Below, piece by piece: positions 20,397 through 44,136 of a stretch of DNA of 64,000 nucleotides (position 1 is its first letter; the number at the start of each line of letters is the position of its first letter). Both the position numbers and the translations under genes were made by a program. The notes under the pieces were generated by a model, which searched no databases, had not been told where the DNA came from, and worked only from the letters and a program-made list of their open reading frames with translations. Location of the stretch: contig JAGAQG010000008.1 of assembly GCA_017622875.1 (NCBI GenBank), positions 1 to 64,000 on the forward strand, written 5' to 3'. The DNA is from Lachnospiraceae bacterium (lineage in GTDB: Bacteria; Bacillota; Clostridia; Lachnospirales; Lachnospiraceae).

Positions 20397-21242
20397 ATGT
20401 TAGTGACATCAAAGGAATTACTTTTAGACGCACAGAAAAACGGTTACGCAGTAGGTGCATTCAATGTGGAAAACATGGAAATGGTGCAGGCTGTGATCGC
20501 AGCAGCTGAAGAGCTTCGCTCTCCAGTCATCATGCAGACAACACCATCCACATTAAAATACGCTGATGCAGACTATTTCTATGCAAACGTAGCATGTGCA
20601 GCAAAGAAAGCAAGTGTCCCTGTGGTTATGCACTTAGACCATGGCAGCAGCTTTGAACTGGCAATGAAGGCATTCCGCGCAGGATATACTTCCATCATGA
20701 TCGATGGCTCTCACAGCGTTTTTGAAGAAAATATTGCTATCACAAAATCTGTGGCAGATGCTTGCCATCCGGCAAATGTACCAGTTGAAGCAGAGCTTGG
20801 TAAAGTTGGCGGTAAAGAAGATGATTTAGACGGCGGAAACGGTGGATATACAGAGCCTTCCGAAGCTGCAGAATTTGTCGAAAGAACAGGTGTTGATTTC
20901 CTGGCAGTAGCTATCGGAACTGCTCACGGAGTTTATAAGGGAATTCCAAAGCTCGACCTTGAACGTTTAAGTGAAATCCGCGAGGTAGTTTCTATTCCAT
21001 TGGTACTTCATGGAACTTCCGGTGTACCTGATGATACAGTTAAAGAATGTATCAAACGCGGCATCTGTAAAGTTAATTATGCAACAGATCTTCGTATTGC
21101 ATTTACAGAAGGTGTAAAGCAGGTATTAGCAGAAAAACCAGAAACCATTGATCCGAAAAAATATAATGCAGCAGGCCGCGAAAAAGTAAAAGAATACGTT
21201 ATGAGCAAAATGCTTGTTTGCGGAAGCAACGGCAGAGCTTAA
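20397..21242 (+). CDS. Class II ketose-bisphosphate aldolase (Fba/KbaY/GatY family)
   Basis: Zinc aldolase splitting a ketose-1,6-bisphosphate into two triose phosphates. Catalytic Asp and first zinc His are in MHLDHGSS. Further zinc His residues are in IGTAHGVYKG and LVLHGTSG, and the phosphate loop starts ELGKVGGKEDD. The 281-aa length, the N-terminal DAQKNGYAVGAFNVEN and the C-terminal VCGSNGRA resemble tagatose-bisphosphate aldolases KbaY/GatY as much as fructose-bisphosphate aldolase. It lies 31 bases after murF with no terminator between. It may be the housekeeping Fba or the catalytic partner of GatZ encoded at 30.8 kb. Confidence 0.88.
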   Translation: MLVTSKELLLDAQKNGYAVGAFNVENMEMVQAVIAAAEELRSPVIMQTTPSTLKYADADYFYANVACAAKKASVPVVMHLDHGSSFELAMKAFRAGYTSIMIDGSHSVFEENIAITKSVADACHPANVPVEAELGKVGGKEDDLDGGNGGYTEPSEAAEFVERTGVDFLAVAIGTAHGVYKGIPKLDLERLSEIREVVSIPLVLHGTSGVPDDTVKECIKRGICKVNYATDLRIAFTEGVKQVLAEKPETIDPKKYNAAGREKVKEYVMSKMLVCGSNGRA

Positions 21243-29644: not shown

Positions 29645-30787
29645 ATGTTAATTCAGAGTAAAAAAGTATGGATTGCAGATCAGTTTATTCCTGCAGTCAT
29701 CGAAATGAATGATGGAAAAATTACAGGTATTTTTCCATATGGAACAAAGGAAGCTGATGTAGATTATGGTGACAAACGCATTGTTCCTGGCTTCATCGAC
29801 ATTCATTGTCATGGTGCTTTTGGCTTCGATACAAACGATGCCAATGAAGAAGGTCTTCGTGCATGGACAAAAGGAATCGTAACCGAAGGTACAACTGCTT
29901 TCCTTGCTACTACTATCACACAGAGCGAAGAAGTTCTGACAAATGCAGTTGCAAACGTAGCAAAGGTTATGGAAGAGGGCTATGAAGGTGCTGAAATCTT
30001 AGGTATCCACTTTGAAGGACCATACCTTGATATGGTCTACAAGGGAGCACAGCCAGAACAGCATATTGTAAAAGGAACCATCGAACAGTTTGAACATTAT
30101 CAGAAAGCTGCCAAGGGAAATATCAAATACATCACCATGGCAACAGAAACTGATGATGATTTTGAACTGACAAAATATTTAACTGAAAACGGAGTCACTG
30201 TAAGCATTGGACATTCCGCAGCTACTTATGAAGAAGCTGTTATGGCATGGGCTAATGGCGCAAAATCCATGACTCATGTATACAACGGTATGACAGCTTT
30301 CAATCATCGTAAAAACGGTCTTGTAGGTGCTGCTTACAGAATCCGTACAATGTATGGAGAAATCATCTGCGATGGCAATCACTCTACAACAGCTGCATTA
30401 AACAACTACTTCATGAGCAAAGGCCCTGACTACTCTATCATGGTTTCTGATGCGTTAATGGCAAAAGGCTCTCCAGCAGGTTCCAAATTCATCTTTGGCG
30501 GAAACGAGATCGAAATCTACCCTGACGGAAGCGCACATTTAACAGCTACAGGTGGTCTTGCAGGCTCTACTTTAAGATTAAATGAAGGACTTCGTATTCT
30601 TGTGGAAGAAGCTATGGTTCCATTTAACTATGCAATCAATTCATGTACAATTAACCCAGCTCGCTGCATCGGTGTTGATGACCGTAAGGGAAGTATCATG
30701 GTAGGAAAAGATGCTGATATTGTAGTCCTTGATACAGATTACAGTGTGATTCAGACATATTGTAAAGGTGAGGCAAAATTATCATAA
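29645..30787 (+). CDS. nagA: N-acetylglucosamine/N-acetylgalactosamine-6-phosphate deacetylase
   Basis: Amidohydrolase removing the acetyl group from the imported N-acetylated amino-sugar phosphate. Metal and substrate motifs: DIHCHGAFG, HFEGPYLD, VSIGHSAATYEEA, THVYNGMTAFNHR and VSDALMAKG (catalytic Asp). 380 aa, standard. AGGAGG precedes the ATG. Followed by gatZ with 37 bases between, which points to the galactosamine branch (AgaA role), though sequence alone cannot separate NagA from AgaA. Confidence 0.94.
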   Translation: MLIQSKKVWIADQFIPAVIEMNDGKITGIFPYGTKEADVDYGDKRIVPGFIDIHCHGAFGFDTNDANEEGLRAWTKGIVTEGTTAFLATTITQSEEVLTNAVANVAKVMEEGYEGAEILGIHFEGPYLDMVYKGAQPEQHIVKGTIEQFEHYQKAAKGNIKYITMATETDDDFELTKYLTENGVTVSIGHSAATYEEAVMAWANGAKSMTHVYNGMTAFNHRKNGLVGAAYRIRTMYGEIICDGNHSTTAALNNYFMSKGPDYSIMVSDALMAKGSPAGSKFIFGGNEIEIYPDGSAHLTATGGLAGSTLRLNEGLRILVEEAMVPFNYAINSCTINPARCIGVDDRKGSIMVGKDADIVVLDTDYSVIQTYCKGEAKLS

Positions 30788-30824
30788 TTAATATAGAAAG
30801 AGATACATCAGGAGGATTTAAATT

Positions 30825-32120
30825 ATGAAACATCCAATGCAGGAAATGATGGAAAAACGCCGCCAGGGAATCAAATGCGGTATTCCTTCTTATTGCAGTG
30901 CAAACGAACTGGTTCTTGAAATTGCACTTCGCCGCGCGAAACTTTTAAATACACCAGTACTGATCGAAGCAACAGCAAACCAGGTTAACCAGTATGGCGG
31001 TTACACTGGAATGCTTCCAAAAGATTTCTACAAATTAGTATTAGACATGGCTGCTGAAATTGATTTACCGGAACAGATGGTAATCTTAGCCGGCGACCAC
31101 TTAGGACCTTTAACATGGCAGAACCTGCCAGAATCAGAAGCGATGGAAAAATCTATTGAGTTAGTTTACCAGTACGCTCGTGCAGGATTTACTAAAATCC
31201 ACTTAGACACAAGTATGAAGGTTGCTGATGATGCTGAAGGACTTCTCTCTACAGAAGTCATTGCACGCCGTGGTGCAATTCTTTATAAAGCAGCAATCAA
31301 AGGCTACGAAGAATTAAAGGCTGAAAAACCAGAAGCAATCCGTCCTGTATTCGTTATCGGTTCTGAAGTACCAATCCCAGGCGGTGCTCAGGAAGCAGAA
31401 GATTCTTTAGCAGTTACAAGCGTTGCAGCATTCAAAGATACAGTTGCTACTTACAAACGCGTTTGGGAAGAAGAAGGCGTCGGCGAGGGCATGAATGACG
31501 TCATCGCAGTTGTTGTTCAGCCAGGTGTTGAATTCGGTGATGACCAGGTATTCTTATATGATCATGATGCAGCAGCTGAACTTTGCGCAGCATTAAAAGA
31601 ATTCCCAGAAGTATGCTTCGAAGGTCATTCTACTGACTACCAGAGCCGGGAATGCTTAAAGGCAATGGTCGAAGACGGTATCGCAATCCTTAAAGTAGGT
31701 CCGGCTTTAACTTATGGTTTAAGAGAAGCATTATTCTCCATGAGCTTAATGGAAAACGAATTAGTTCCAGAAGAAGAACGCTCTAACTTCATCGATGTTC
31801 TTGAAAAAGTAATGTTAGAAAACCCAGGCAACTGGCAGAAACATTACCACGGCGATGAAAAACAGCTCCATCTTGCAAGAAAATACAGTTTCTCTGACCG
31901 TGCACGTTATTATATTGGACAGCCGGAAGTTGTCGAAGCTATGAACAAGCTGTTTGCAAACTTAAATGCACACAAGATTCCTTTAAATATGCTTCATCAG
32001 TATATGCCATTAACATACGCTAAAGTTCGTGATGGAGAACTCCCATTAGACGCAAAAGAACTGGCTATGGATGGCGTTACAAACTTCATGCTTGACTACG
32101 AATACGCAGTAACACTGTAA
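30825..32120 (+). CDS. gatZ: D-tagatose-1,6-bisphosphate aldolase, non-catalytic subunit (GatZ/KbaZ)
   Basis: 431-aa TIM-barrel subunit that stabilises and activates the class II tagatose-bisphosphate aldolase. Recognisable stretches: IPSYCSANELVLE near the start, ILAGDHLGPL, KIHLDTSMKVADD, VIGSEVPIPGGAQE and FEGHSTDYQ. The catalytic partner (KbaY/GatY) is not adjacent; the class II aldolase gene at 20.4 kb is a candidate. AGGAGG precedes the ATG. Second gene of the nagA operon. Confidence 0.93.
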   Translation: MKHPMQEMMEKRRQGIKCGIPSYCSANELVLEIALRRAKLLNTPVLIEATANQVNQYGGYTGMLPKDFYKLVLDMAAEIDLPEQMVILAGDHLGPLTWQNLPESEAMEKSIELVYQYARAGFTKIHLDTSMKVADDAEGLLSTEVIARRGAILYKAAIKGYEELKAEKPEAIRPVFVIGSEVPIPGGAQEAEDSLAVTSVAAFKDTVATYKRVWEEEGVGEGMNDVIAVVVQPGVEFGDDQVFLYDHDAAAELCAALKEFPEVCFEGHSTDYQSRECLKAMVEDGIAILKVGPALTYGLREALFSMSLMENELVPEEERSNFIDVLEKVMLENPGNWQKHYHGDEKQLHLARKYSFSDRARYYIGQPEVVEAMNKLFANLNAHKIPLNMLHQYMPLTYAKVRDGELPLDAKELAMDGVTNFMLDYEYAVTL

Positions 32121-33052: not shown

Positions 33053-33646
33053 CTATTTCTGATAACCGCGTTTATATTTCTCATCATCCTCAGGTGTCAG
33101 TTCTCTGATTACCCTGCAAGGATTTCCTCCTGCCAGGACATTCGCCGGAATGTCTTTTGTCACAACACTTCCTGCCGCAATGATGGAATTATCTCCAATT
33201 GTCACTCCTCCAACAATACTGACATGCCCGCCAATCCATACGTTGTTTCCAATTGTTACCGGCCATGCATATTCCAGCCAGGAGTTTCTTTCTTCTACAG
33301 AAAACGGATGCCCTGCTGCATAGATTCCACAATTCGGACCAAACATCACATGATCTCCAATCGTCACATAATTTCCTGCCAGGATTGTAAAATTATAATT
33401 TGCGAAAAAATCTTCCCCTACAGAAACTCTCTTCCAGAAATCACAGTGAAACGGCTGCTCAATTCTGATGCGTTCCCCTGTTTTTCCAAATTCTCTTTTT
33501 AAATAGGCCGCTCTGCCCGCTCTGTCAGCCGGACGAATCTGGTTATAGTCAAAAGAAAGTTCCTGACTTCTAATACGCTCTTTTTCCAATTCCGGTTCAT
33601 CTGCCTGATAAAATAATCCTGCCAATGCTTTTTGTTCTTCTGTCAT
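33053..33646 (-). CDS. Sugar O-acetyltransferase (maltose/galactoside type)
   Basis: 197-aa left-handed beta-helix acetyltransferase that moves acetyl from acetyl-CoA to a sugar hydroxyl. The N-terminal maltose-acetyltransferase region (residues about 5-60) is followed by hexapeptide repeats with NYNFTILAGNYVTIGDHVMFGPN, the catalytic His in YAAGHP, and GNNVWIGGHVSIVGGVTIGDNS. Monocistronic with AGGAGG upstream. The acceptor sugar is unknown. Confidence 0.9.
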   Translation of the reverse strand: MTEEQKALAGLFYQADEPELEKERIRSQELSFDYNQIRPADRAGRAAYLKREFGKTGERIRIEQPFHCDFWKRVSVGEDFFANYNFTILAGNYVTIGDHVMFGPNCGIYAAGHPFSVEERNSWLEYAWPVTIGNNVWIGGHVSIVGGVTIGDNSIIAAGSVVTKDIPANVLAGGNPCRVIRELTPEDDEKYKRGYQK

Positions 33647-33736: not shown

Positions 33737-34747
33737 TTAGTCGTATAATAATGGAGCAATATCCTCATCATCCATATTTGTTGCATCGTACCAACGACAT
33801 CCTGTATCATAGTAGCTTTCTACTTCTTCGCCATTGATCAGCTTAATTGCGATTTCAATCGTTTTTCTTCCCATACCAATTGGATCCTGTGTAATTGCCC
33901 CTGCAATTTCACCATCTCTGATTGCCTGTTTTAATGCTGCAGAAGAGTCGAAACCAATCAGGAGAACCTCACCAATTAAATTACCTTCTTTTAATCCATT
34001 GTAAGCACCTACACAAGCACCTTCATTCGATGTATAAATAAGATCAATATCCGGATTTGCTGTCATCATACTCTTTGCAATTTCCGCAGATTTTAACTGG
34101 TCACCTTCCCCATACTGAACATCAACGATTTCAATGTCAGGATATTCACCAATTTTTTCGATGAAACCATCAACTCGCTGAACAGCATCAATTGTTGTCT
34201 GAGAATGTCCAATTACTGCCACTTTACCTTTTTCGCCAAGGAGTTCTGCTGCATGCTCTGCTGCCATTGCACCTGCTGCAAGGTTGTCTGTAGAACATTT
34301 AGAATCAGATTCTTCTTCGCCTACACCAGCGTCAAATCCAACAACTGGGATACCTTCTGCTTTTGCTTCCTGTAAGATTGTTGCTACAGATTCTGTATCG
34401 ATTGCTGCCATGCAAACCGCTTTTGGATTGTTCTGTAATGCAGTTTTCAGCATATCTACCTGCTTATCTACCATTGTTTCTGTTTCAGGACCCTCAAATG
34501 TGATTCTGTATCCTGCTTCTGCCGCAGCTTCTTCCGCCCCCTGTTTTACTGCCTGCCAGAACTGATGTCCGAAACCTAAAGATACCATTGCAATGTAATT
34601 ATCATTACTTGCTGTATCTCCTGTTTCTGCTGTTTCAGCGTTTCCTGCCTCTGGTGCTGCTGCTTCTTCTGAAGCACCGCCGCCGCATCCAACTGCCGAA
34701 AGTACCATTGCTGCCATTAAGATTGCTGCTAAAATTTTCTTTTTCAT
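33737..34747 (-). CDS. Sugar-type ABC transporter substrate-binding lipoprotein (RbsB-like)
   Basis: Extracytoplasmic binding protein of the ribose/pentose class (peripla_BP_4). Signal peptide with lipobox VGCGG (Cys about residue 21), then a low-complexity Ala/Glu/Thr linker to about residue 48. The mature domain shows SLGFGHQFWQAVKQGAEEAA, VGFDAGV and LIGFDSSAALKQAIRDGEIAGAITQDP. The ligand may be a sugar, cyclitol or related compound. Last gene of the operon that starts with the mutarotase-like gene. 336 aa. Confidence 0.92.
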   Translation of the reverse strand: MKKKILAAILMAAMVLSAVGCGGGASEEAAAPEAGNAETAETGDTASNDNYIAMVSLGFGHQFWQAVKQGAEEAAAEAGYRITFEGPETETMVDKQVDMLKTALQNNPKAVCMAAIDTESVATILQEAKAEGIPVVGFDAGVGEEESDSKCSTDNLAAGAMAAEHAAELLGEKGKVAVIGHSQTTIDAVQRVDGFIEKIGEYPDIEIVDVQYGEGDQLKSAEIAKSMMTANPDIDLIYTSNEGACVGAYNGLKEGNLIGEVLLIGFDSSAALKQAIRDGEIAGAITQDPIGMGRKTIEIAIKLINGEEVESYYDTGCRWYDATNMDDEDIAPLLYD

Positions 34748-34816
34748 GAAAAAACCTCCTTTTTATTGGGCTGCATTTTTATGTTCAAGGCTCCCAGCCT
34801 TAACCATCCGTTTATC

Positions 34817-35782
34817 TTATCTTCCTGCTTTCATTTTCTTTGCCTGATCCAAGAATACTGCCAACGCAAGAACCAGACCTACGATCGCTGACTGAAGTTC
34901 TGTAGGAACTGCCATGATACGGAGCCCATTTGTTAAGGAACTAATGATCAACGCGCCTATAATTGTTCCCACGATGCTTCCTTCTCCTCCGGAAAGTGAG
35001 TTGCCGCCAATAACTGCCGCTGCAATTGCTTCTGTTTCGTAACCTGTACCAAGAGACGGCTGTGCTGAATTTAATCTGGAGGACATTACAAGACCTGCAA
35101 CACCTGCCAGTAAACCAGATAATGCGTAAATTATGATTTTCCATTTATCTACATTGATACCAGACAAACGGGTCGCTTCCTGATTAGAGCCAATTGCCAG
35201 AGTATAACGTCCTAGTAACGTATGCGAGAACAAAATATAGCAAATAACTGCAACTACAATTAAGATAATAATCGCATTATAGAAGCCTGGAATTCCCAAA
35301 AATTCGCCTGTCGCGATTTTCTGATAAAATGAACACTCACTAAAATATACCGGCTTGATTCCTGAAACAACCAATGATAACCCTTTCGTAATCATTTGCA
35401 TCGCCATGGTCGCAATAAATGGTGGAAGATACATTTTTGTAATTGCAAAACCGTTAATTGCACCACAGAGTGCTCCCACAAAAAATCCAAACAGAATTGC
35501 GATCCAGATATTCCATCCCCACACAGTAAAAGCTGTACCACTCATTACACAAGAAAACGTCATAACTGTACCTACGGAAATATCAATTCCCCCGGTAATG
35601 ACCGGAAACGATACACCCAGTGCCAAAATTCCGTTTACACACGTTGCCAGCAAAATTGTCATAATATTGCTGTAAGATGCATAACTTGGATTCATGACTG
35701 AAAAGAATCCAAAGATTAAAATAAACGCACAAACAATAATCAGTTTATGTGATGCTTCTCTGCTTTTTAAAATTGATTTCAT
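34817..35782 (-). CDS. Sugar ABC transporter permease (RbsC-like)
   Basis: 321-aa membrane permease of the BPD_transp_2 family with about eight to ten hydrophobic segments. Typical features are ITGGIDISVGTVM near residue 65 and AAVIGGNSLSGGEGSIVGTIIGA near residue 250, the conserved coupling regions of ribose-type permeases. It lies between the ATPase and the binding-protein genes, with AAGGAGG upstream. Confidence 0.94.
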   Translation of the reverse strand: MKSILKSREASHKLIIVCAFILIFGFFSVMNPSYASYSNIMTILLATCVNGILALGVSFPVITGGIDISVGTVMTFSCVMSGTAFTVWGWNIWIAILFGFFVGALCGAINGFAITKMYLPPFIATMAMQMITKGLSLVVSGIKPVYFSECSFYQKIATGEFLGIPGFYNAIIILIVVAVICYILFSHTLLGRYTLAIGSNQEATRLSGINVDKWKIIIYALSGLLAGVAGLVMSSRLNSAQPSLGTGYETEAIAAAVIGGNSLSGGEGSIVGTIIGALIISSLTNGLRIMAVPTELQSAIVGLVLALAVFLDQAKKMKAGR

Positions 35783-35796
35783 CTTCCTTTCCTCCT

Positions 35797-37299
35797 TTAA
35801 GCCAGACGTCTGGTTGCATAACCCATAATTACGTCCTGATCAATTTCTTCTTTCGTAACCTCACCGGTAATTCGTCCTTCACACATAACGATTACCCTAT
35901 GACATGTACGAATGATTTCCGGTAATTCAGATGAAATTACAATGATGGTCTTTCCCTGATCTGCCAGTTCATTCATCAGTTTATAGATTTCATTTTTCGC
36001 ACCAATGTCAATTCCCCTGGTAGGTTCATCAAAAACAAGGATGTCCGTATTACGTGTCAGCCACTTCGCCAATACGACTTTCTGCTGATTTCCGCCTGAG
36101 AGATTCTTTACCTTCTGTTTCAGTGATGGAGTTTTTATCTGTAATGCATTTCGCTGCTGTTCAGAATTTTCCATAGATTTCTTTTTATTAATAATTCCAA
36201 AAACATTAATAAAGCTTCTCATATCTGCCATGGAAATGTTCTGGTCAATATCTAATCCCAGCGCAAGCCCATATTGTTTTCTATCTTCTGAAAGATATGC
36301 AATTCCATTTTCCACTGCAACTTTTGGAGAGGTAATCTTAACCGCTTTGCCTTTAATAATGATCTCTCCGCTTTCATATCTGTCTGCACCAAAGATAGCT
36401 CTCATGGTTTCTGTTCTTCCAGCTCCCACCAGACCTGCGAATCCAAGAATTTCTCCAGCACGTGCTTTGAAAGAAACATCCTGTACCATTCTTCCTGCAT
36501 TCAGATTTTTTACCTCCAGTGTTACTGGGGCATTAACATCCTCAAAGTCTTTCTGTTTTGTTACAAAAATTTCTCGTCCTACCATCATTTTAATGATTTG
36601 ATCTACTGTAACATCTTCAATATTTTTTGTATCGACATAAGCACCGTCTCGCATGACTGTGATTCTGTCGGCAATATCCTGAAGTTCTTCCAAACGATGA
36701 GAAATATGTATCACCGATCTTCCTTCTGCTTTCAGCATACGAATTACACGGAAAAGATCTTCTATTTCATTGTCTGTTAACGCCGCTGTCGGCTCATCCA
36801 TAATCAAAACCTTAAAGTCAAAGGAAATCGCCTTTGCAATCTCCACCATTTGCTGTTTCGCAACCGTTAATTCTCCTACCCGAACCGTTGGATCAATATC
36901 TACATTCAATTTTTCGAACAGTGCTTTTGCTTCTTTATTTTGTTTTGCCTTGTCTAAGAACAGATTGCCTGACTTCTTAAATTCACGTCCAATAAAGATA
37001 TTTTCTGCCGCACTCAAATGATTCATTAAGTTCAATTCCTGATGAATCATAACAATTCCTGCTTCCTGCGCATCGCGGACACCTTTTATTGTTAACTCCT
37101 GTCCATTCATATAAATGGTTCCTTTATCTTTTGGATAAACTCCAGTCAGCACCTTCATCAGGGTAGATTTTCCAGCCCCATTTTCACCTACAAGCGCATG
37201 TACTTCGCCTGCTCTCAACTCAAATCGAACATCATCCAAGGCCTTTACACCGGGGAAAGACTTTTCAATATGTTCCATGCGAATCAGTTCTCCAGCCAT
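35797..37299 (-). CDS. Sugar ABC transporter ATP-binding protein (RbsA-like, two cassettes)
   Basis: 500-aa protein with two fused ATP-binding cassettes. The first has Walker A GENGAGKST and Walker B LIMDEPTAAL. The second has the degenerate Walker A GLVGAGRTE, signature LSGGNQQK and Walker B LVFDEPTRGID, as in ribose, galactose and other CUT2 transporters. It starts 30 bases from the creatininase-family stop codon. Energises uptake through the following permease. Confidence 0.95.
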   Translation of the reverse strand: MAGELIRMEHIEKSFPGVKALDDVRFELRAGEVHALVGENGAGKSTLMKVLTGVYPKDKGTIYMNGQELTIKGVRDAQEAGIVMIHQELNLMNHLSAAENIFIGREFKKSGNLFLDKAKQNKEAKALFEKLNVDIDPTVRVGELTVAKQQMVEIAKAISFDFKVLIMDEPTAALTDNEIEDLFRVIRMLKAEGRSVIHISHRLEELQDIADRITVMRDGAYVDTKNIEDVTVDQIIKMMVGREIFVTKQKDFEDVNAPVTLEVKNLNAGRMVQDVSFKARAGEILGFAGLVGAGRTETMRAIFGADRYESGEIIIKGKAVKITSPKVAVENGIAYLSEDRKQYGLALGLDIDQNISMADMRSFINVFGIINKKKSMENSEQQRNALQIKTPSLKQKVKNLSGGNQQKVVLAKWLTRNTDILVFDEPTRGIDIGAKNEIYKLMNELADQGKTIIVISSELPEIIRTCHRVIVMCEGRITGEVTKEEIDQDVIMGYATRRLA

Positions 37300-37329
37300 T
37301 TTTTCACCTCTTTCATCTAATTCTCCAAT

Positions 37330-38067
37330 CTAAACAATTATTTTTTCCAGAGTTTCCAACGCACACTGTACCATATGCTGGCCTAACTCCATGCTGGTTT
37401 CTGAGGCACTCATTGCGAACCACTCTGTATTTAGCTTTGTTCGTTCCAAATCAACATGATTCGGATATAAAGCATACATAAGACTGGATTCATATTTGCC
37501 TGCATGATCAAAACCGCCGCACTTATGCTGTGCTTCTGCAGACAGAAGCGGGATTACTTTAATATAAGAAAGAGGATCATCACCTGTTCCAAGATTCTCA
37601 TAATAATCTGAAAAATCATTGCTTCCCCACCAGCCTTTGCCTCTTGTATCCTCCATATATTCCATAAGGACCTTTTTGGCTGCTTTGTGACAGGCGATCG
37701 TCATTGGCATCAATCCCGCTTCTTCTGTCTGATGATGAGCCACACAATAAATATTTTTCACGCCTCCATACACCATGGATTTCAAAATACAATATATGTA
37801 ATTTTCATACGCATCTACATCCACATGAATGGTTCCGCTTTCCGGTCCTGCAACTGCGTAACTTGCAACACCATACCAAATCGGCGGGCAGACAACGATT
37901 TCTTTTGTCTTTTCCAGTTCCCTCATGATTCCATTGATAACCATTGTATCGGTTCCACAGCTTGCATGTTGTGCATGATACTCAATGGTGCCAATTGGAA
38001 TGACAAAAGGTACTTTTCTATTTTTGCAATCTTCCAGTTCCTGATAGAACATATCAATCATCTGCAT
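37330..38067 (-). CDS. Creatininase-family amidohydrolase
   Basis: 245-aa metal-dependent hydrolase of the creatininase fold. Metal-binding pattern IPIGTIEYHAQHASCGTDT (E-x-H and Asp) is near residues 25-42. The second site His is in VAHHQTEEAG (about residue 110), where true creatininase has H-Y-E, so the Glu ligand is replaced. The family also contains formamidopyrimidine deformylase and 3-dehydro-scyllo-inosose hydrolase (IolN), so cyclic sugar-lactone or amide substrates are possible. Its neighbours are a creatinase-like protein and a sugar-type ABC importer. Substrate unproven. Confidence 0.85.
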   Translation of the reverse strand: MQMIDMFYQELEDCKNRKVPFVIPIGTIEYHAQHASCGTDTMVINGIMRELEKTKEIVVCPPIWYGVASYAVAGPESGTIHVDVDAYENYIYCILKSMVYGGVKNIYCVAHHQTEEAGLMPMTIACHKAAKKVLMEYMEDTRGKGWWGSNDFSDYYENLGTGDDPLSYIKVIPLLSAEAQHKCGGFDHAGKYESSLMYALYPNHVDLERTKLNTEWFAMSASETSMELGQHMVQCALETLEKIIV

Positions 38068-38112
38068 AATATTCCCACCTCACATTAGTACAATTTTGGT
38101 TTCCACTCCGAC

Positions 38113-39291
38113 TTAAAAGTCAAGTTCATAAAGTTTTCCGATCTCAGGAGACAAAACGTCACATCCAGTTTCAGTAACCGCAATACCCTTTTCCCAACGT
38201 ACACCAAAAGTATCTGTTGCAATAAACGTATCGATCTGGAACGTCATATTTGGCTGCAAGTTATAGTTAGAACTTGTTTCTACCCAAGGAGCCTCTACCT
38301 CAATTAATCCTGTTCCATGAAGCGGGCCATATACAAAATTCTCTTTATATCCATTTTCTACATAGTAGTTATAAAATCCGCTTGCAATATCTGCTGCCGG
38401 AACACCTGCTTTAATCTGCTTTTCAGACCATTTATGTGCTTCCAGACCAAACATTACAATGTCACGTCTCTTTCCTTCCAGTTTTCCAAGAACCACCGGA
38501 TAACCAATTGCTGCGGAATATCCATCAATCTTTGCCGAGAGATTTAGCTGAACAATGTCCCCTTTTTCAAATTTGCGATAGCTGGAACGCGAAATAGCAT
38601 GTCTTGTGGAAGCTTCTGAGAATACATACATTGGAAGTCCTTCATATTCTGCACCCTGTTCATAGACAACTCGCTGTGCCACACCAACCATCTGAAGCTC
38701 TGTCATACCTGGTTTAATTTCTTTGATAACCTGCTGAGATGCTAACTCCGCGATGCGATAGCCTTCACGCAGGCAATTGATTTCGTTTACGGATTTAATA
38801 CGACGAAGTTCTACCATAATATGGTCTGCACGAACAATTTCTGCTTCCGGAAAAGCATCTTTAATACCTTCCATGATAACAACAGAAGTATCAAGGTAGC
38901 TTGCAACACCAATACGAAGCTTTTTACCTGTGACTCCAACTGCTTTAAAAGCATCCTGGAAAGTATCTGGTACAAGCTCCGGATATGCAGGATCCGCACT
39001 CTCTCTATATTCTTTTAATACAAATATTTTATCGATTTTAGATCTGTCCGCTGCAAATTCACGGCTTTCCGGACCTACCATCAGCGCTGCATCTCCTGAA
39101 GGTGCGATTACTACGCCACATCTTTCAAACAATGGCCAAAATCCTGAGAAATAACGTGCATTTGCATAATCTGCTTCGTTAGAGTTTACAATCAGCGCAT
39201 CTAACTTATCTCTCTTGATTAATTCTGCCGCTCTCAATGCTCTTTCTTTGTATTCGCTTACCGGGATTAAAATTTTTCCATGTTCTGCCAT
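38113..39291 (-). CDS. M24-family creatinase-like protein
   Basis: 392-aa pita-bread fold protein with an N-terminal creatinase domain (about residues 10-155) and an M24 domain (about 165-385). Metal ligands of aminopeptidase P are largely lost: the first two Asp are Asn250 and Ala261, the Glu in the fourth position is Asp354, and only His325 and Glu367 remain. Creatinase itself has no metal, so a non-peptidase hydrolase role is likely. His231 (STRHAIS) is near the position of the catalytic His of creatinase. The ATG at 39291 follows AGGAGG; the longer frame upstream lacks such a site. Confidence 0.85.
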   Translation of the reverse strand: MAEHGKILIPVSEYKERALRAAELIKRDKLDALIVNSNEADYANARYFSGFWPLFERCGVVIAPSGDAALMVGPESREFAADRSKIDKIFVLKEYRESADPAYPELVPDTFQDAFKAVGVTGKKLRIGVASYLDTSVVIMEGIKDAFPEAEIVRADHIMVELRRIKSVNEINCLREGYRIAELASQQVIKEIKPGMTELQMVGVAQRVVYEQGAEYEGLPMYVFSEASTRHAISRSSYRKFEKGDIVQLNLSAKIDGYSAAIGYPVVLGKLEGKRRDIVMFGLEAHKWSEKQIKAGVPAADIASGFYNYYVENGYKENFVYGPLHGTGLIEVEAPWVETSSNYNLQPNMTFQIDTFIATDTFGVRWEKGIAVTETGCDVLSPEIGKLYELDF

Positions 39292-39331
39292 GATAATTCC
39301 TCCTGTTTTTTTGTTTTTCATCATAAATTGT

Positions 39332-39691
39332 TTATTCGTTATATCCAGGGGTTGTATAGAATGCAACCGCTCTGGTTTCTGCCCGTCCATACTGTGCAAC
39401 GATTGGAACATTGCTTTCCAGCATAATCGCATACTGTTCACCAACAGTTGCCAGATAGCCACCGAAGTCTTTTTCTTCGTTTGTTCTCAAACAGCGGACT
39501 CTTCCTGCCCCTACTGTTACACAAAGACCTTTGACCGGCTCTTTTTCTTCATAGAAGAGGGTAATATTTACCTTTGCTTCTTCTTCTCCCGTATTCGTGA
39601 TAATTACCGACTCATGTCCTGGAATGTTATTCACTCCTTCTGGCGGCAATTCTGCATCCGGGAATATCCATACCTTTTTTCCGTAGCCCAT
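39332..39691 (-). CDS. ASRT-family (sensory rhodopsin transducer-like) small-molecule-binding protein
   Basis: 119-aa all-beta protein of the Anabaena sensory rhodopsin transducer superfamily. Matching features are KVWIFPDAELPP at the start, HESVIITNTGEEEAKVNITLFYEEKEP, the Arg-rich turn GAGRVRCLRTNE, and ESNVPIVAQYGRAETR. There is no rhodopsin gene nearby. Relatives in non-photosensory bacteria were proposed to bind sugar-like ligands, so a ligand-binding or sugar-processing role in this operon is reasonable. AAGGAG precedes the ATG. Confidence 0.85.
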   Translation of the reverse strand: MGYGKKVWIFPDAELPPEGVNNIPGHESVIITNTGEEEAKVNITLFYEEKEPVKGLCVTVGAGRVRCLRTNEEKDFGGYLATVGEQYAIMLESNVPIVAQYGRAETRAVAFYTTPGYNE

Positions 39692-39708
39692 GTTTGTTCT
39701 CCTTTGCT

Positions 39709-40038
39709 TTATTCATAATAAAAAATCTGTTCCATATCGTGATAGAACTCACTCTCGGGTGAAATGGAATATTTTTCAAAGCATGGCTTTGTATGTTTCC
39801 ACCACTCCTGCGTCACTTTGTCAGCTTCCATCTTTTTCATGTCACCCTCATAGTCTTCTCCTACATATTCAAAGTAAGAAAACACCTGATTCCCCTGAAG
39901 AAAGATTGAGTAATTTTGGAGATTACAATCCGAAATCGTTTTTAGGACTCCCGGCCATGCATTGGCATGCAGTTTTTTATATTCCTCTACTTTTTCTGAT
40001 TTTAATGTGCCAATTTGCCCAAAAACCTTTCTGCTCAT
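39709..40038 (-). CDS. L-rhamnose mutarotase family protein
   Basis: 109-aa ferredoxin-like-fold protein related to RhaM, which interconverts anomers of L-rhamnose. Conserved elements are KLHANAWPGVL (His), NYSIFL (Tyr), YFEYVGEDY and QEWWKHT (Trp pair). The ATG at 40038 follows AGGAAGAG; a GTG six codons earlier is rejected. No rhamnose isomerase, kinase or aldolase is present, so the substrate is probably another pyranose-like compound. First gene of the operon divergent from the LacI fusion. Confidence 0.85.
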   Translation of the reverse strand: MSRKVFGQIGTLKSEKVEEYKKLHANAWPGVLKTISDCNLQNYSIFLQGNQVFSYFEYVGEDYEGDMKKMEADKVTQEWWKHTKPCFEKYSISPESEFYHDMEQIFYYE

Positions 40039-40079
40039 AATCTCTTCCTGACTCACATTTCTGTTTTATGTATATTGAC

Positions 40080-40108
40080 ATTTTATCTACCCCTCATCTA
40101 AAAATCAA
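40080..40108 (-). promoter_or_regulatory. Promoter of the mutarotase-creatininase-ABC operon
   Basis: Minus-strand TTGATT (40103-40108), 17-bp spacer, TAAAAT (40080-40085). Confidence 0.6.
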
Positions 40109-40138
40109 TATTTTTAACTTGTTTTCACTTTAATTTAA

Positions 40139-40151
40139 TTGAAACGTTTAA
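40139..40151. promoter_or_regulatory. LacI-type operator between divergent promoters
   Basis: TTGAAACGTTTAA has the central-CG palindrome typical of LacI-family sites. It lies upstream of both -35 elements, 12 bases from that of the regulator gene and about 30 from that of the operon. Confidence 0.6.
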
Positions 40152-40163
40152 CTTATATTTTTA

Positions 40164-40192
40164 TTGTATTTTACCTTTAAGTTATGTATAAT
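40164..40192 (+). promoter_or_regulatory. Promoter of the LacI-fusion gene
   Basis: TTGTAT (40164-40169), 17-bp spacer, TATAAT (40187-40192). Confidence 0.65.
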
Positions 40193-40224
40193 AAACATAT
40201 TATCTTTGGAAAGGATTATTTATT

Positions 40225-42480
40225 ATGGCTACAATCAAAGATGTCGCTCTCATGGCTGGAGTATCTATTGCAACCGTATCAAACTACTTAAATCACACCA
40301 AACCTGTCAGTAAAGAGGTATCTGCAAAAATTCAGGATGCAATTGAACATTTAAAATACACACAGAACTTATCTGCAAAAACGTTGAAATCACGAACATC
40401 TGTCGATATCGGTGTAATCCTTCCCGATTTTGACAATCCGTACTATATTCAGTTGTTAAAGGGAATCGAAAGCGCTTTTGTCAATACAGATTATTTCTTG
40501 AATATTGCTATTTCATATGACATTCCTGATATAGAGAAAAACATTGTACAGAATTTTTTAAAAAAACAGATCAGCGGTCTGATTATTATCTCTTGTCAAC
40601 CTGATCAATGGAAATATTATTACGACCATTTTACTTCCCGTAATCTCCCTATCGTCATGGTCGATCGTGATATTCATGGATTAGATGCCAATTTTATTGC
40701 CTTTGACAATATTTCAATTGTTCATCAGATGACAAGTCATCTTTTGCAAAACCAATACCGGGATATTTTCCTTTTTTCGGGACCATCCGATTTTGAATGC
40801 GAAGAGAACTGTCGTACGGGCTTCCAACAGGCTTTTGAAGATTTTGAGATTTCATTTTCCATGGAACAAATGATCAAAACAAATTTCAGCAAGGAAAATG
40901 CATTCAGCAAAACAATTCAGCTTTTAGGCACTCATACACCGGAAGCTATCGTTGCAACCTCTGAAATCATTGCAACTGGTGTAATGGAAGCTTTGAGAAT
41001 TCTTGGCTATAAAAACGATGAAATTCCTGTACTGACTCTCGGTGAAGCGCACTGGAATCTGTGTACTCACACGTTTTCAACTGTTTCTGCAGTTCGCCCG
41101 GTCATGAAATTAGGAAAAACCGCAGCCGAACTGCTAATTCAGCAGCTTGCTTCTCCTCACGCCAAAGAAACTGAAAGAATCATTTTCAAAAACGAAGAAA
41201 TAAAAATGTATCCCCCACTCTCCACGATTCCTCCGCTGCAGCCGCCAAAAGAGGTTCCCCAGCCGAAGGAAAAACTGCGTATTTTAATGCTGGATACCCC
41301 ACAAGTACATACTTTCATGGGGCTTTTACGTATTTTTGAGCAAAAGGAAAATATTAAAACCGAAGTAACGATTATCCCTCATCACCTTTTGTATGATCGA
41401 ATTCTGGAAAACTACCGTTCAGATACTGAAGAACCTTTTGACATTTTAATGTATGACCTGCCATGGCTGGTGCCTCTTGCCTCCAAACATATTCTGGAGG
41501 ATATCTCAGATTTGATGACAACCATCGATCAGGAAATTTTTTTACCAGACTGTTTAAAATTTTACAGTATTTACAACAACCATTTTTATGGCATTCCATT
41601 CATGTACGCACCGCAGCTTTTTTATTACCGAAAAGATCTGTTTGAAAATCCGGAATTAAAAGCGGAATATGAGCGTCAGAACAATCTTTCTCTCAGGCCT
41701 CCATTGACCTTAAAGGAATTTAACACAATCGCTGACTTCTTTACAAACTATTCCGATGCCATTCCTTACGGTGTATCCATTCCTGCGTCCTATGACGAAT
41801 GCCTTGCACCTGAAATCTATATGCGAATGCGTGCTTTTGGTGGAAATATTTTTGATAAATCAGGAAAAGTATGCTTTAACAGTTCTTCAACTTTAAAAGC
41901 TTATATTAGTTTTATCAAATCCACTCATTTTGCCAAGCCAGATTATCGCAATGCTACAGATGTCAGTGTCGTACAGGATTTCTTGAATGGTGAAACTGCA
42001 ATGCTGATTTCTTATCCGTCCTTTTTAACGGATGTTGCAGATTTACGTAAGAGCAGTATCATCGGCTCCATTGGTTATCATCACATTCCGGGGCGCAGTC
42101 CTTTGCTTGGTGGGTGGAGCCTTGGAATCAGCAGTAAATCTTTCAAAAAAGACAATGCTTTCCAGTTTTTAAAATGGATGTGTGAAGAACCAATTGCAAA
42201 TTATTTTACATTGCTTGGGGGACAAACAGCGATTACCTCCACTTACACCAACGATGAATTAAACAAGCTTTATCCATGGTTATCGCTTTATCATAATACC
42301 TATCAATATGCGAAACCAATTATTTCTCCTAGTATGGGAAAATATAATATCATTTCTCAGACTGATGTAGACGCTATCGTTTGCAGGCAGCTCTATGAAT
42401 TGATGGATGAAAAAGTTGATGTAACAACTGCTATTGAAAAAACCCATTTTGATCTTGAGTCCTATTTAAAACAAATATAA
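40225..42480 (+). CDS. LacI-family regulator fused to an extracellular solute-binding-protein domain
   Basis: 751-aa cytoplasmic regulator built of two sensor folds. Residues 1-55 are the LacI helix-turn-helix (TIKDVALMAGVSIATVSNYL). Residues about 60-335 form the LacI/periplasmic-binding core (IGVILPDFDNPYYIQLL). A Pro/Lys-rich linker (PPLQPPKEVPQPKEK) follows, and residues about 350-751 are a family 1 solute-binding protein domain (FDILMYDLPWL, YGIPFMYAPQLFYYRKDLF, LGGWSLGISSKSFKKDNA). No signal peptide is present, so the second domain also senses an intracellular ligand. Normal LacI proteins are about 340 aa. It likely controls the divergent operon. Confidence 0.9.
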   Translation: MATIKDVALMAGVSIATVSNYLNHTKPVSKEVSAKIQDAIEHLKYTQNLSAKTLKSRTSVDIGVILPDFDNPYYIQLLKGIESAFVNTDYFLNIAISYDIPDIEKNIVQNFLKKQISGLIIISCQPDQWKYYYDHFTSRNLPIVMVDRDIHGLDANFIAFDNISIVHQMTSHLLQNQYRDIFLFSGPSDFECEENCRTGFQQAFEDFEISFSMEQMIKTNFSKENAFSKTIQLLGTHTPEAIVATSEIIATGVMEALRILGYKNDEIPVLTLGEAHWNLCTHTFSTVSAVRPVMKLGKTAAELLIQQLASPHAKETERIIFKNEEIKMYPPLSTIPPLQPPKEVPQPKEKLRILMLDTPQVHTFMGLLRIFEQKENIKTEVTIIPHHLLYDRILENYRSDTEEPFDILMYDLPWLVPLASKHILEDISDLMTTIDQEIFLPDCLKFYSIYNNHFYGIPFMYAPQLFYYRKDLFENPELKAEYERQNNLSLRPPLTLKEFNTIADFFTNYSDAIPYGVSIPASYDECLAPEIYMRMRAFGGNIFDKSGKVCFNSSSTLKAYISFIKSTHFAKPDYRNATDVSVVQDFLNGETAMLISYPSFLTDVADLRKSSIIGSIGYHHIPGRSPLLGGWSLGISSKSFKKDNAFQFLKWMCEEPIANYFTLLGGQTAITSTYTNDELNKLYPWLSLYHNTYQYAKPIISPSMGKYNIISQTDVDAIVCRQLYELMDEKVDVTTAIEKTHFDLESYLKQI

Positions 42481-42542: not shown

Positions 42543-44075
42543 TCAGACAAATTCCCTCATATTCAATAATGTTTCATAAATATCAATCTTTCCCCATCCA
42601 AACTCCGTATTGGGATATTTTCTTGCATCCCTTTTGGCTCCTCTTATTAGATAATTTTTAATCTGAACCCCGGTATATTCATGGTTATACTCCATCATCA
42701 AAACTGCCACCCCGGCCGACAACGCTGCTGCTACAGAAGTTCCGCTTCTTGCAGTATAGAGTCCGCCCCGAATCGGACCTCTGACGCTGACTCCTGGTGC
42801 TGCCAAATCCGGTTTCACCATTCCGTCTCTCGTAAAGCCTCTGGAGGAATCCAGATAAACGCCTTCTGTCTCTGTAGAATACGCAGAGATTGTCATACTT
42901 TGACTTCCATTTCCAGGTTCTGTAATCGTTGTTTCCGGATCAGGTTTTAAAAACACTGCTTCTCCCTGAATAAATGGGGTAATTGGCATCCACAGATCAA
43001 AGCGGCCCCCGTAAACCTCTTCCTGAAAAATTCGCAGTTTCCAGATTCCGTCGGCTGGTTTTTCCATAAAAATACGAATAAGTGTCGCTCCTGTCACTGC
43101 CTCCACCCGTTCATAAATAACATAAATTTTTGTCTGTTCAAATATAAAGGACAAAGCTTCCCGCAAATAAGTCCTCGTAGGCAATTTTTCCACCACTTCT
43201 CCTGTAGGAGATACAAATCCAATTCCATACAGGTCTGGCACATCAGCCCAAAACTCTATATAGAGCCCCTCTTTTACCCCGGCAATCCTAACCTCCACAT
43301 CCTGATATAGAATCCCTTCATAAGACCGGCTTTTAAAATGATGGGCTGCATTTCCTTCATTTCCGCCTGCTACCACCACCGCACGTCCCGGCTGCAGTGA
43401 TATCAGATCCAGATAACCATTAAAATCTCCTCTGCCATTATGATCTCCTCTGCTGGAAGATATCCCAAAATACAAGACCATATCCCTATCTCTTTCCTGT
43501 GCAAAGGAAATCATAAAATCTGTGGCGGCGATCAGATCATCTTCCGTATAAGCAGGAGTTTCCTCCTCTACAAACCAGAATTTTTTCAAACATTTGTCTG
43601 CCTGCCGCAATTTCACCACAAGGATCTCCGCATTCGGTGCAATTCCTGTGAATTCTTCCTCTTCTTCTACATTTCCTACTGCAAGTCCTGTCATAAAGGT
43701 TCCATGACCAATCTCATCTGTCACCGGTAAAATTTCCAAAGGATTTTCATTTTTTAATGCTTCATTAATCTCCTCTTGCAAATATAATTTTCCAAAAGAA
43801 ACTCCCGATGCAGGGGCATCCTCTGCGCTCTGATCCCAGATTGCCAAAATACGGCTCCTTCCGTCTCCAAAGCGAAAGACTGGATGAGTATAATCAATTC
43901 CTGTATCTGCAATCCCAAAAATAATTCCACGCCCCGTCAAATTCAAATAGGGCTGACGTCTCAGCTTTAAGACCCCCATCTCTTCTGCCGCGATCAGATC
44001 AGAAAGACCATACAGCTTCTGATTCAAATAGATTTCATATTGTTCCGAAAAAGGTGTCACGTTGCATTCCGGCAT
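42543..44075 (-). CDS. Subtilisin-like S8 peptidase (Csp-like)
   Basis: 510-aa subtilase of the clostridial Csp type, proteases linked to spore germination or intracellular processing. All three catalytic residues are present: Asp57 in IADTGIDYTH, His in EIGHGTFMTG, and Ser in RSGTSVAAAL. A large insert of about 200 residues lies between the His and Ser regions, as in CspB. No signal peptide. The ATG at 44075 is preceded by AAGAGG; an upstream ATG at 44114 lies inside the preceding terminator and is rejected. Whether it works in germination is inference. Confidence 0.9.
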   Translation of the reverse strand: MPECNVTPFSEQYEIYLNQKLYGLSDLIAAEEMGVLKLRRQPYLNLTGRGIIFGIADTGIDYTHPVFRFGDGRSRILAIWDQSAEDAPASGVSFGKLYLQEEINEALKNENPLEILPVTDEIGHGTFMTGLAVGNVEEEEEFTGIAPNAEILVVKLRQADKCLKKFWFVEEETPAYTEDDLIAATDFMISFAQERDRDMVLYFGISSSRGDHNGRGDFNGYLDLISLQPGRAVVVAGGNEGNAAHHFKSRSYEGILYQDVEVRIAGVKEGLYIEFWADVPDLYGIGFVSPTGEVVEKLPTRTYLREALSFIFEQTKIYVIYERVEAVTGATLIRIFMEKPADGIWKLRIFQEEVYGGRFDLWMPITPFIQGEAVFLKPDPETTITEPGNGSQSMTISAYSTETEGVYLDSSRGFTRDGMVKPDLAAPGVSVRGPIRGGLYTARSGTSVAAALSAGVAVLMMEYNHEYTGVQIKNYLIRGAKRDARKYPNTEFGWGKIDIYETLLNMREFV

Positions 44076-44096
44076 AAAAAACCTCTTTTTAATTAA

Positions 44097-44136
44097 AATA
44101 CGCTCATAGAACATTTCAGTTCCACGAGCGTATTTA
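44097..44136 (-). terminator. Terminator of the glucose-type IIA gene
   Basis: Inverted repeat AATACGCTC/GAGCGTATT (44097-44105 and 44126-44134) with an inner GAAC/GTTC pair, followed by TTTT on the minus strand. Confidence 0.8.

Follow-up and report, generated by a model that had tools for sequence, protein, structure and literature searches.

A putative LacI-controlled sugar operon built round an M24, creatininase-family and ASRT module in a Lachnospiraceae bacterium

Here we analyzed a catabolic gene cluster of a Lachnospiraceae bacterium (assembly GCA_017622875.1), located in a stretch of 64,000 nucleotides (contig JAGAQG010000008.1, positions 1 to 64,000) which is called the window throughout. 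The cluster brings together a RhaM-family mutarotase, a protein of the Anabaena sensory rhodopsin transducer family (ASRT), an M24 pita-bread protein, a creatininase-family protein (CRN) and an ATP-binding cassette (ABC) importer of the ribose type, with a divergent LacI-type regulator (Table 1). The M24, CRN and ASRT proteins form a genuine module, because this core recurs in varied surroundings and the genomes that have one part tend to have the others, with exceptions, which is more than chance would give. On balance we read the cluster as a LacI-controlled operon that takes up a single monosaccharide and begins its processing, an L-fucose-like pyranose being the best guess. That the compound is a sugar of some kind appears likely, and the L-fucose-like identity taken alone is put forward tentatively. 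The initial annotation of this DNA had inferred one dedicated uptake-and-hydrolysis pathway and had named a pyranose-like ligand among the clues; a single locally regulated uptake-and-processing unit is borne out, and of those clues the pyranose-like ligand is the better one.

The distribution of the core was surveyed in 397 genomes of the family Lachnospiraceae, the genome of the window included. Some match to CRN was found in 66 of them and a match of at least 49% identity in nine (100% in the own genome, then 89, 86, 86, 84, 81, 80, 72 and 49%), the remaining matches being remote at about 19-39%. The M24 protein was found in 11 genomes at E <=1e-60, 10 of those at 48% identity or more. Close CRN and close M24 proteins occur together in nine genomes belonging to seven genera (Fisher p 1.6e-17, with kinship ignored), and genome G223 has M24 without CRN. 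For the surroundings of the genes we used 80 CRN loci, the best 80 of 117 stretches confirmed by CRN alignment in named genomes; many of these contigs are short, so that absence of a gene there is weak evidence. In 43 of the 80 record titles (counted by eye) a gut site is named, the hosts being goats, sheep, deer, yak or buffalo, and two of the records are spirochaetes. The window proteins were recovered by tblastn at these loci as follows: CRN 80, M24 52, ASRT 39, RhaM 18, acetyltransferase 17 and solute-binding protein (SBP) 13, besides RbsA 28 and RbsC 19 with remote transporters counted in, and the LacI-type regulator 18 with other LacI proteins counted in.

CRN and M24 lie on the same strand less than 500 bp apart at 42 of the 50 loci having usable frames of both; among the remaining eight, the separation is 3.7-4.4 kb at four and about 0.9 kb at two, and at two the genes are on opposite strands. 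A dependence of the parts on one neighbourhood is not supported, no M24 lying in the flank at 28 of the 80 CRN loci. An M24 frame of at least 90 aa is missing at 29 loci (one of them, L124, has an M24 fragment at the contig end), and a genome-wide search of these 29 found an M24 protein of 59-80% identity elsewhere in 21, one of merely 24-39% in five and none at E <=1e-30 in three. CRN and M24 are therefore coupled across genomes even when they are not adjacent, with exceptions remaining. The initial annotation had made its reading depend on the gene set being kept together in other genomes; the core does recur, and the whole seven-gene order was present in no locus inspected.

From the divergent promoter region (about 40039-40224) the minus-strand genes run in the order RhaM, ASRT, M24, CRN, RbsA, RbsC, RbsB-type protein and acetyltransferase, with intergenic gaps of 17, 40, 45, 30, 14, 69 and 90 bp, and by the positions of the frames this spacing is as in a single operon. 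The gaps take the M24 gene from the ATG at 39291, inferred from relatives, in place of a longer frame from 39462 in the list of open reading frames; for the mutarotase the list gives a GTG at 40056, and the ATG at 40038 agrees with relatives. All eight genes named earlier are present at their positions according to Pfam, and the earlier gene list had omitted the acetyltransferase gene on the same strand, which probably ends the operon and whose relatives stand directly behind CRN in loci L051, L063 and L101.

Table 1. Genes and the probable operator of the cluster, with positions in the window.
Feature	Position	Strand	Basis
O-acetyltransferase, maltose/galactoside type (Mac + hexapeptide); probable final operon gene	33053..33646	-	Pfam
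Solute-binding protein, RbsB type, Peripla_BP_4	33737..34747	-	PF13407 2.4e-60; columns common with E. coli RbsB
RbsC-type permease, BPD_transp_2	34817..35782	-	PF02653 1.6e-46
RbsA-type double ATPase, ABC_tran	35797..37299	-	PF00005, two stretches
Creatininase-family protein (CRN)	37330..38067	-	PF02633 E 2.5e-29; metal-site residues retained
M24 pita-bread protein	38113..39291	-	PF00557 3.7e-27 and Creatinase_N 2e-11; predicted fold
ASRT protein	39332..39691	-	PF07100 1e-25; PDB 2ii7, 1nc7
RhaM-family mutarotase, FucM-like	39709..40038	-	PF05336 9e-27; best PDB match 7byw
Probable operator AGTTAAACGTTTCAATTAAA	40134..40153	-	AAACGTTT core in 11/12 divergons, window included
Divergent regulator: LacI DNA-binding domain and LacI-type sensor, followed by an extracellular-type solute-binding domain (SBP_bac)	40225..42480	+	PF00356, PF00532, PF13416, PF01547

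The control of the operon was approached through divergons with this type of regulator. The core listed in Table 1 occurs at a similar place in all of them, some being near relatives, except the twelfth, L116, which has AAACGATT instead. With up to one mismatch the pattern AGTNAAACGTTTNAATNNAA has a single site in the genome of the window, at this promoter, and 11 distinct sites in seven genomes (12 rows, one palindromic site being counted on both strands), seven of them at the divergon, and the reversed control gave two hits. Since these loci supplied the pattern, they contain it by construction, and what is informative is how rare it is in other places. Within the window by itself one site was found against 0.43 expected, which is not beyond chance. 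Four other sites in relatives lie near a phage-like region, other LacI-type genes or other importer genes (by eye) and gave no pathway lead. No RNA family reached its gathering score in the window; scans for promoters (15 found, 20.5 expected from shuffles) and terminators (9 found, 5.0 expected) were not used as evidence.

CRN is a member of the creatininase superfamily (102.8 bits to PF02633, cut-off 31.3), and it falls below the curated cut-off of the creatininase model TIGR04448 (62.9 bits, cut-off 235) and below that of the IolN model NF041098, its second NCBIfam match (51.9 bits, cut-off 245). Its residues E29, H31, D40, H112, H188 and E193 are invariant in 80 of 80 sequences (the window and 79 loci) and align with identical residues of creatininase, which we take to be the metal site and catalytic base of that enzyme. 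H111, Q113, T114, E115, W146 and W147 are also kept in all 80, Q113 being aligned with the Tyr next to the metal-site His of creatininase. By these alignments CRN should be an active metal hydrolase with a specificity other than that of creatininase. Solo CRN genes of about 70% identity were also seen beside housekeeping genes, in L103, L105, L109, L117, L125, L136 and others.

In M24 metallopeptidases the metal is bound by five residues, D, D, H, E and E. In the M24 protein of the window (numbered by the frame 38113-39297 and aligned with M24 peptidases) the two Asp positions hold N252 and A263, the latter being S in seven of 50 sequences, while all 50 share N252, H327, D356 and E369, with D356 replacing Glu. 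The ligand set of an M24 metallopeptidase is thus broken at both Asp, and a plain proline peptidase is ruled out by this loss. The protein had been described as without most metal ligands; this overstates the loss, which concerns the two Asp, whereas H327, D356 (for Glu) and E369 are still there. It scores 93.7 bits to a putative aminopeptidase P and 41.9 to creatinase (1chm). The predicted structure has the pita-bread fold (mean predicted local distance difference test score, pLDDT, 89.9; template modelling score about 0.7-0.8 to prolidases and creatinase). Its structural matches include prolidases, creatinase, ectoine hydrolase and the dimethylsulfoniopropionate lyase DddP, so that the M24 fold is known to support both hydrolysis and elimination.

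More distant M24 proteins were met in other company. Locus L056 (L056:8638-19514, on contig C26 of the window's own genome) has a distant M24 (25%), a RhaM-like protein (46%) and ASRT, with an M81 MlrC-type metallohydrolase in the stead of CRN, two RbsC, RbsA, a LacI regulator, an acetyltransferase and a short-chain dehydrogenase (the last by eye). M24, ASRT and M81 genes are together in L055 and L162 too, and L058 has a distant M24 and ASRT by an importer with no M81 match, so the hydrolase partner is not constant. Proteins of 712-726 aa adjoin M24-ASRT pairs at L160:267-2405, L162:11270-13450 and L163:7620-9785; they are glycosidase candidates, the sole Pfam match of the L160 copy being DUF4838, below cut-off.

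The mutarotase scores 48.9 bits to the L-rhamnose mutarotase model TIGR02625, below the cut-off of 99.6. Its closest PDB entries are 7byw and 7byu, L-fucose mutarotase (83.5 bits, matching at 40 of 103 aligned positions), of which we take 7byw to be FucM, and the L-rhamnose mutarotases of PDB reach 20-27 bits. The sequence is nearer to L-fucose than to L-rhamnose mutarotase, and on these scores an L-rhamnose mutarotase is ruled out. ASRT reaches 90.5 bits to PF07100 (cut-off 25). De Souza et al. 2009 described ASRT beside sugar importers or isomerase-aldolase-kinase genes and proposed an intracellular sugar sensor (PMC2739507). As in those operons, a stand-alone ASRT lies here near a monosaccharide ABC importer; the available part of that paper names no M24 protein, creatininase or RhaM, and the window has all three. 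The C of the signature SHEshChhN is I or V in 38 of 38 sequences here, with H and N retained. In other ASRT loci the gene adjoins apparent rhamnose-isomerase or glycosidase genes (by eye), consistent with the published picture.

The importer is of the ribose type, the best NCBIfam model of the permease being the ribose permease, and all three parts are below the cut-offs of the ribose models (RbsA 570 bits, cut-off 745; RbsC 231, cut-off 398; RbsB 106, cut-off 337). The SBP retains the E. coli RbsB columns D114, R166, N215 and Q260 and has A in place of R115, the five being presumably the ribose contacts of RbsB. A window-type importer (at least 60% identity) is found at L063, at L083, L084, L087 and L101 (SBP 68-73%, RbsC 64-67%, RbsA 69-70% by tblastn, with RbsA of L083 a 66-aa fragment at 79%), and also at L175 and L176 with M24 and ASRT, CRN not being nearby (RbsA 77%, RbsC 79%, SBP 69-71%). 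In a tree of 74 M24 proteins six of these seven loci, all except L063, fall in a sister M24 lineage of 63% identity, and the window and L063 share the other lineage. The six nearest M24 relatives (L064, L066, L068, L069, L071 and L073) have AraC-type regulators, CRN in all six, ASRT in five and a DUF4432 protein behind CRN in four; none has a window-type importer in its flanks, L071 ending soon after CRN. By sequence the window looks like the core of one M24 lineage joined to the importer of the other. Round a single ASRT-M24-CRN core, L063 carries two importers, one of the window type and another of a different kind accompanied by a GH20b-bearing protein, and two importers able to serve one core would suggest one substrate, taken up free or as a glycoside.

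Further clues come from the genes with which the module travels. At L083, L084, L087 and L101 a class II aldolase, an FGGY kinase and a PfkB kinase lie between M24 and CRN (tblastn; families assigned by Pfam and NCBIfam on the L087 copies, where the aldolase is of the ketose-bisphosphate type), and their place inside the operon supports a downstream pathway of this kind. L087:5974-6660 and L084:5629-6315 encode a 228-aa protein with no Pfam match and a weak NanE-type hit, perhaps a sugar-phosphate epimerase; relatives of it are in 20 of the 397 family genomes, only two of which (G015 and G038) carry CRN. The initial annotation noted that rhamnose genes are absent, which is true of the locus only, as contig C51 of the genome carries a RhaA-family match and contig C37 an L-fucose-isomerase-family match. 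With the own genome counted in, the L-fucose isomerase family is present in 10 of 10 carriers and the L-rhamnose isomerase family in eight of 10. The genes near M24 or CRN in relatives include glycosidases with GH2, GH3, GH120 and the GH141 insertion domain, and one protein whose DUF4838 match is below cut-off. Taken together the clues favour a neutral pyranose, perhaps L-fucose-like, and none is decisive.

Two further protein groups were observed at such loci. One is a protein of 690-738 aa with only GH20b by Pfam (two copies scanned), present at eight of the 80 CRN loci (L070:3255-5357, and L063, L074, L075, L081, L082, L094 and L114), with no signal peptide by eye and a weakly GH84-like predicted fold from a poor model (mean pLDDT 62.8, root-mean-square deviation about 10-12 in the first matches); it is possibly an unassigned glycosidase family. 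The other consists of URO-D-family proteins inside related sugar loci (L055:8111-9160, L130:1967-3013, L097 and L077), the L130 copy having weak matches to MtaA-type methyltransferases, and these might hint at O-methylated sugars.

In the proposed scheme the RbsB-type protein would capture the sugar and RbsAC would bring it in, after which the FucM-like mutarotase would equilibrate its anomers. ASRT would bind the sugar or its product, as a cytoplasmic sensor or an accessory. CRN, with its intact metal site, would open the ring of a derivative, be it a lactone, a cyclic amide or a cyclic ketone, and the M24 protein, with its altered metal site, would perform the partner step, a hydrolysis or an elimination. 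The product would then pass to isomerases, kinases and aldolases, which here would have to be encoded elsewhere. The acetyltransferase may dispose of unusable analogues, by analogy with LacA, for which such a role is proposed. The sequences themselves establish which genes are present, that the core recurs, that importers are exchanged and that an operator sequence is common to the divergons; from these we infer the succession of steps, the ring opening, the M24 reaction and the class of substrate.

Several observations weigh against this scheme. A fixed gene set had been anticipated, and the window-type importer is at just five of the 80 CRN loci; a fixed seven-gene operon is ruled out, the importer varying among loci. 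CRN stands amid housekeeping or unrelated genes at many loci (by eye), and most relatives are incomplete metagenome genomes. ASRT has further partners, since in a survey of 34 ASRT loci with flanks of about 1.5 kb (15 from the window's genome and nearer relatives, 19 from 398 phylum genomes) an M24 frame lies near ASRT in only nine; the 19 phylum loci account for two of the nine, and one of those two frames is a fragment. The RhaM family may harbour further specificities. In the genome of the window, which is 87.7% complete, close orthologues are lacking both for the FGGY kinase (best 26%) and for the L087 aldolase (best 41%, window 20400-21131), and the 228-aa protein has no match. The isomerase-family counts among carriers stand without a background set for comparison.

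Four other explanations were weighed. The substrate may be a nitrogen-bearing sugar, such as an aminosugar or a glycosylamine, whose amide or amidine group is cleaved by CRN or the M24 protein. C-N bonds are the target of enzymes with the creatininase and creatinase folds, and the GH20b-bearing protein with its weakly GH84-like fold fits such a substrate; that model is poor, however, and no deaminase or deacetylase is among the window genes scanned, and we consider this reading unlikely. Slightly less probable is a cyclic polyol pathway in which an IolN-like CRN would hydrolyse a keto-inositol ring. It draws on the IolN match of CRN and on the PfkB kinase of L087, whose 163 bits to the IolC model come close to its top score of 173; against it, CRN is far under the IolN cut-off, the scanned window genes include no dehydrogenase, and it is not obvious what a mutarotase would do with a cyclitol. 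It is quite improbable that M24 and CRN stand in for the absent aldose-ketose isomerase of a kinase-aldolase pathway, as L083, L084, L087 and L101 could suggest, where kinases and aldolase (in three also RhaM) come with no isomerase recognised. We know of no M24- or creatininase-fold isomerase, the 228-aa protein or a distant gene could supply the activity, and L177, an M24 relative, is adjoined by a protein weakly resembling L-arabinose isomerase. In favour of that reading, published ASRT operons pair ASRT with an isomerase, as far as the available part of the account goes (PMC2739507). Creatinine or creatine catabolism, allowed for by the initial annotation, with CRN opening creatinine and the M24 protein splitting creatine, is very improbable and was set aside on scores and gene context: both proteins are in the creatininase/creatinase superfamilies and co-occur, and structural comparison of the M24 model also brings up creatinases, but CRN is far under the creatininase cut-off, the M24 sequence resembles peptidases more closely than creatinase, Q113 aligns with a Tyr next to the metal-site His, and the recurrent partners and most scanned neighbours are sugar genes (creatine and urea genes were not searched for).

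The sugar operon proposed here shares parts with known systems and differs in others. The non-phosphorylating L-fucose pathway (PMC11199699) has FucM, to which the RhaM-family mutarotase here is closest; a dehydrogenase, a COG3618-type lactonase and a dehydratase are not among the nine window genes scanned. The ribose operon rbsDACBK has the same importer type, and its RbsK and RbsD are absent among the window genes scanned, the SBP also differing at RbsB R115. With the creatininase-creatinase pathway both enzyme superfamilies and their pairing are alike, whereas scores and gene partners differ. No paper on the M24-CRN pair or the full combination was found in the open-access literature, most subscription journals being outside this scope.

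In the vicinity of the operon, a subtilisin-like protein (by eye) is encoded at window 42543-44114, behind the regulator on the opposite strand. Genes resembling NagA and a GatZ/KbaZ-type protein (by eye) lie at 29645-32120 on the plus strand and a class II aldolase frame at 20397-21242, perhaps a neighbouring aminosugar pathway.

We tentatively suggest that the M24-CRN pair is a new two-enzyme step in the breakdown of deoxyhexoses or rare sugars, with a lactonase-like ring opening by CRN, a metal-free or single-metal hydrolase or lyase in the M24 protein and ASRT assisting, and that this step may be portable across the importers and glycosidases of anaerobic gut bacteria. The operon suggests that anaerobes, many of which come from herbivore guts, have a sugar step not yet charted, and it gives a testable cellular role to two folds which are usually read as peptidase or creatininase. 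It also sets ASRT, the ligand of which is predicted, in a context, and it is a warning that such M24-CRN pairs should not be annotated as creatinine degraders.

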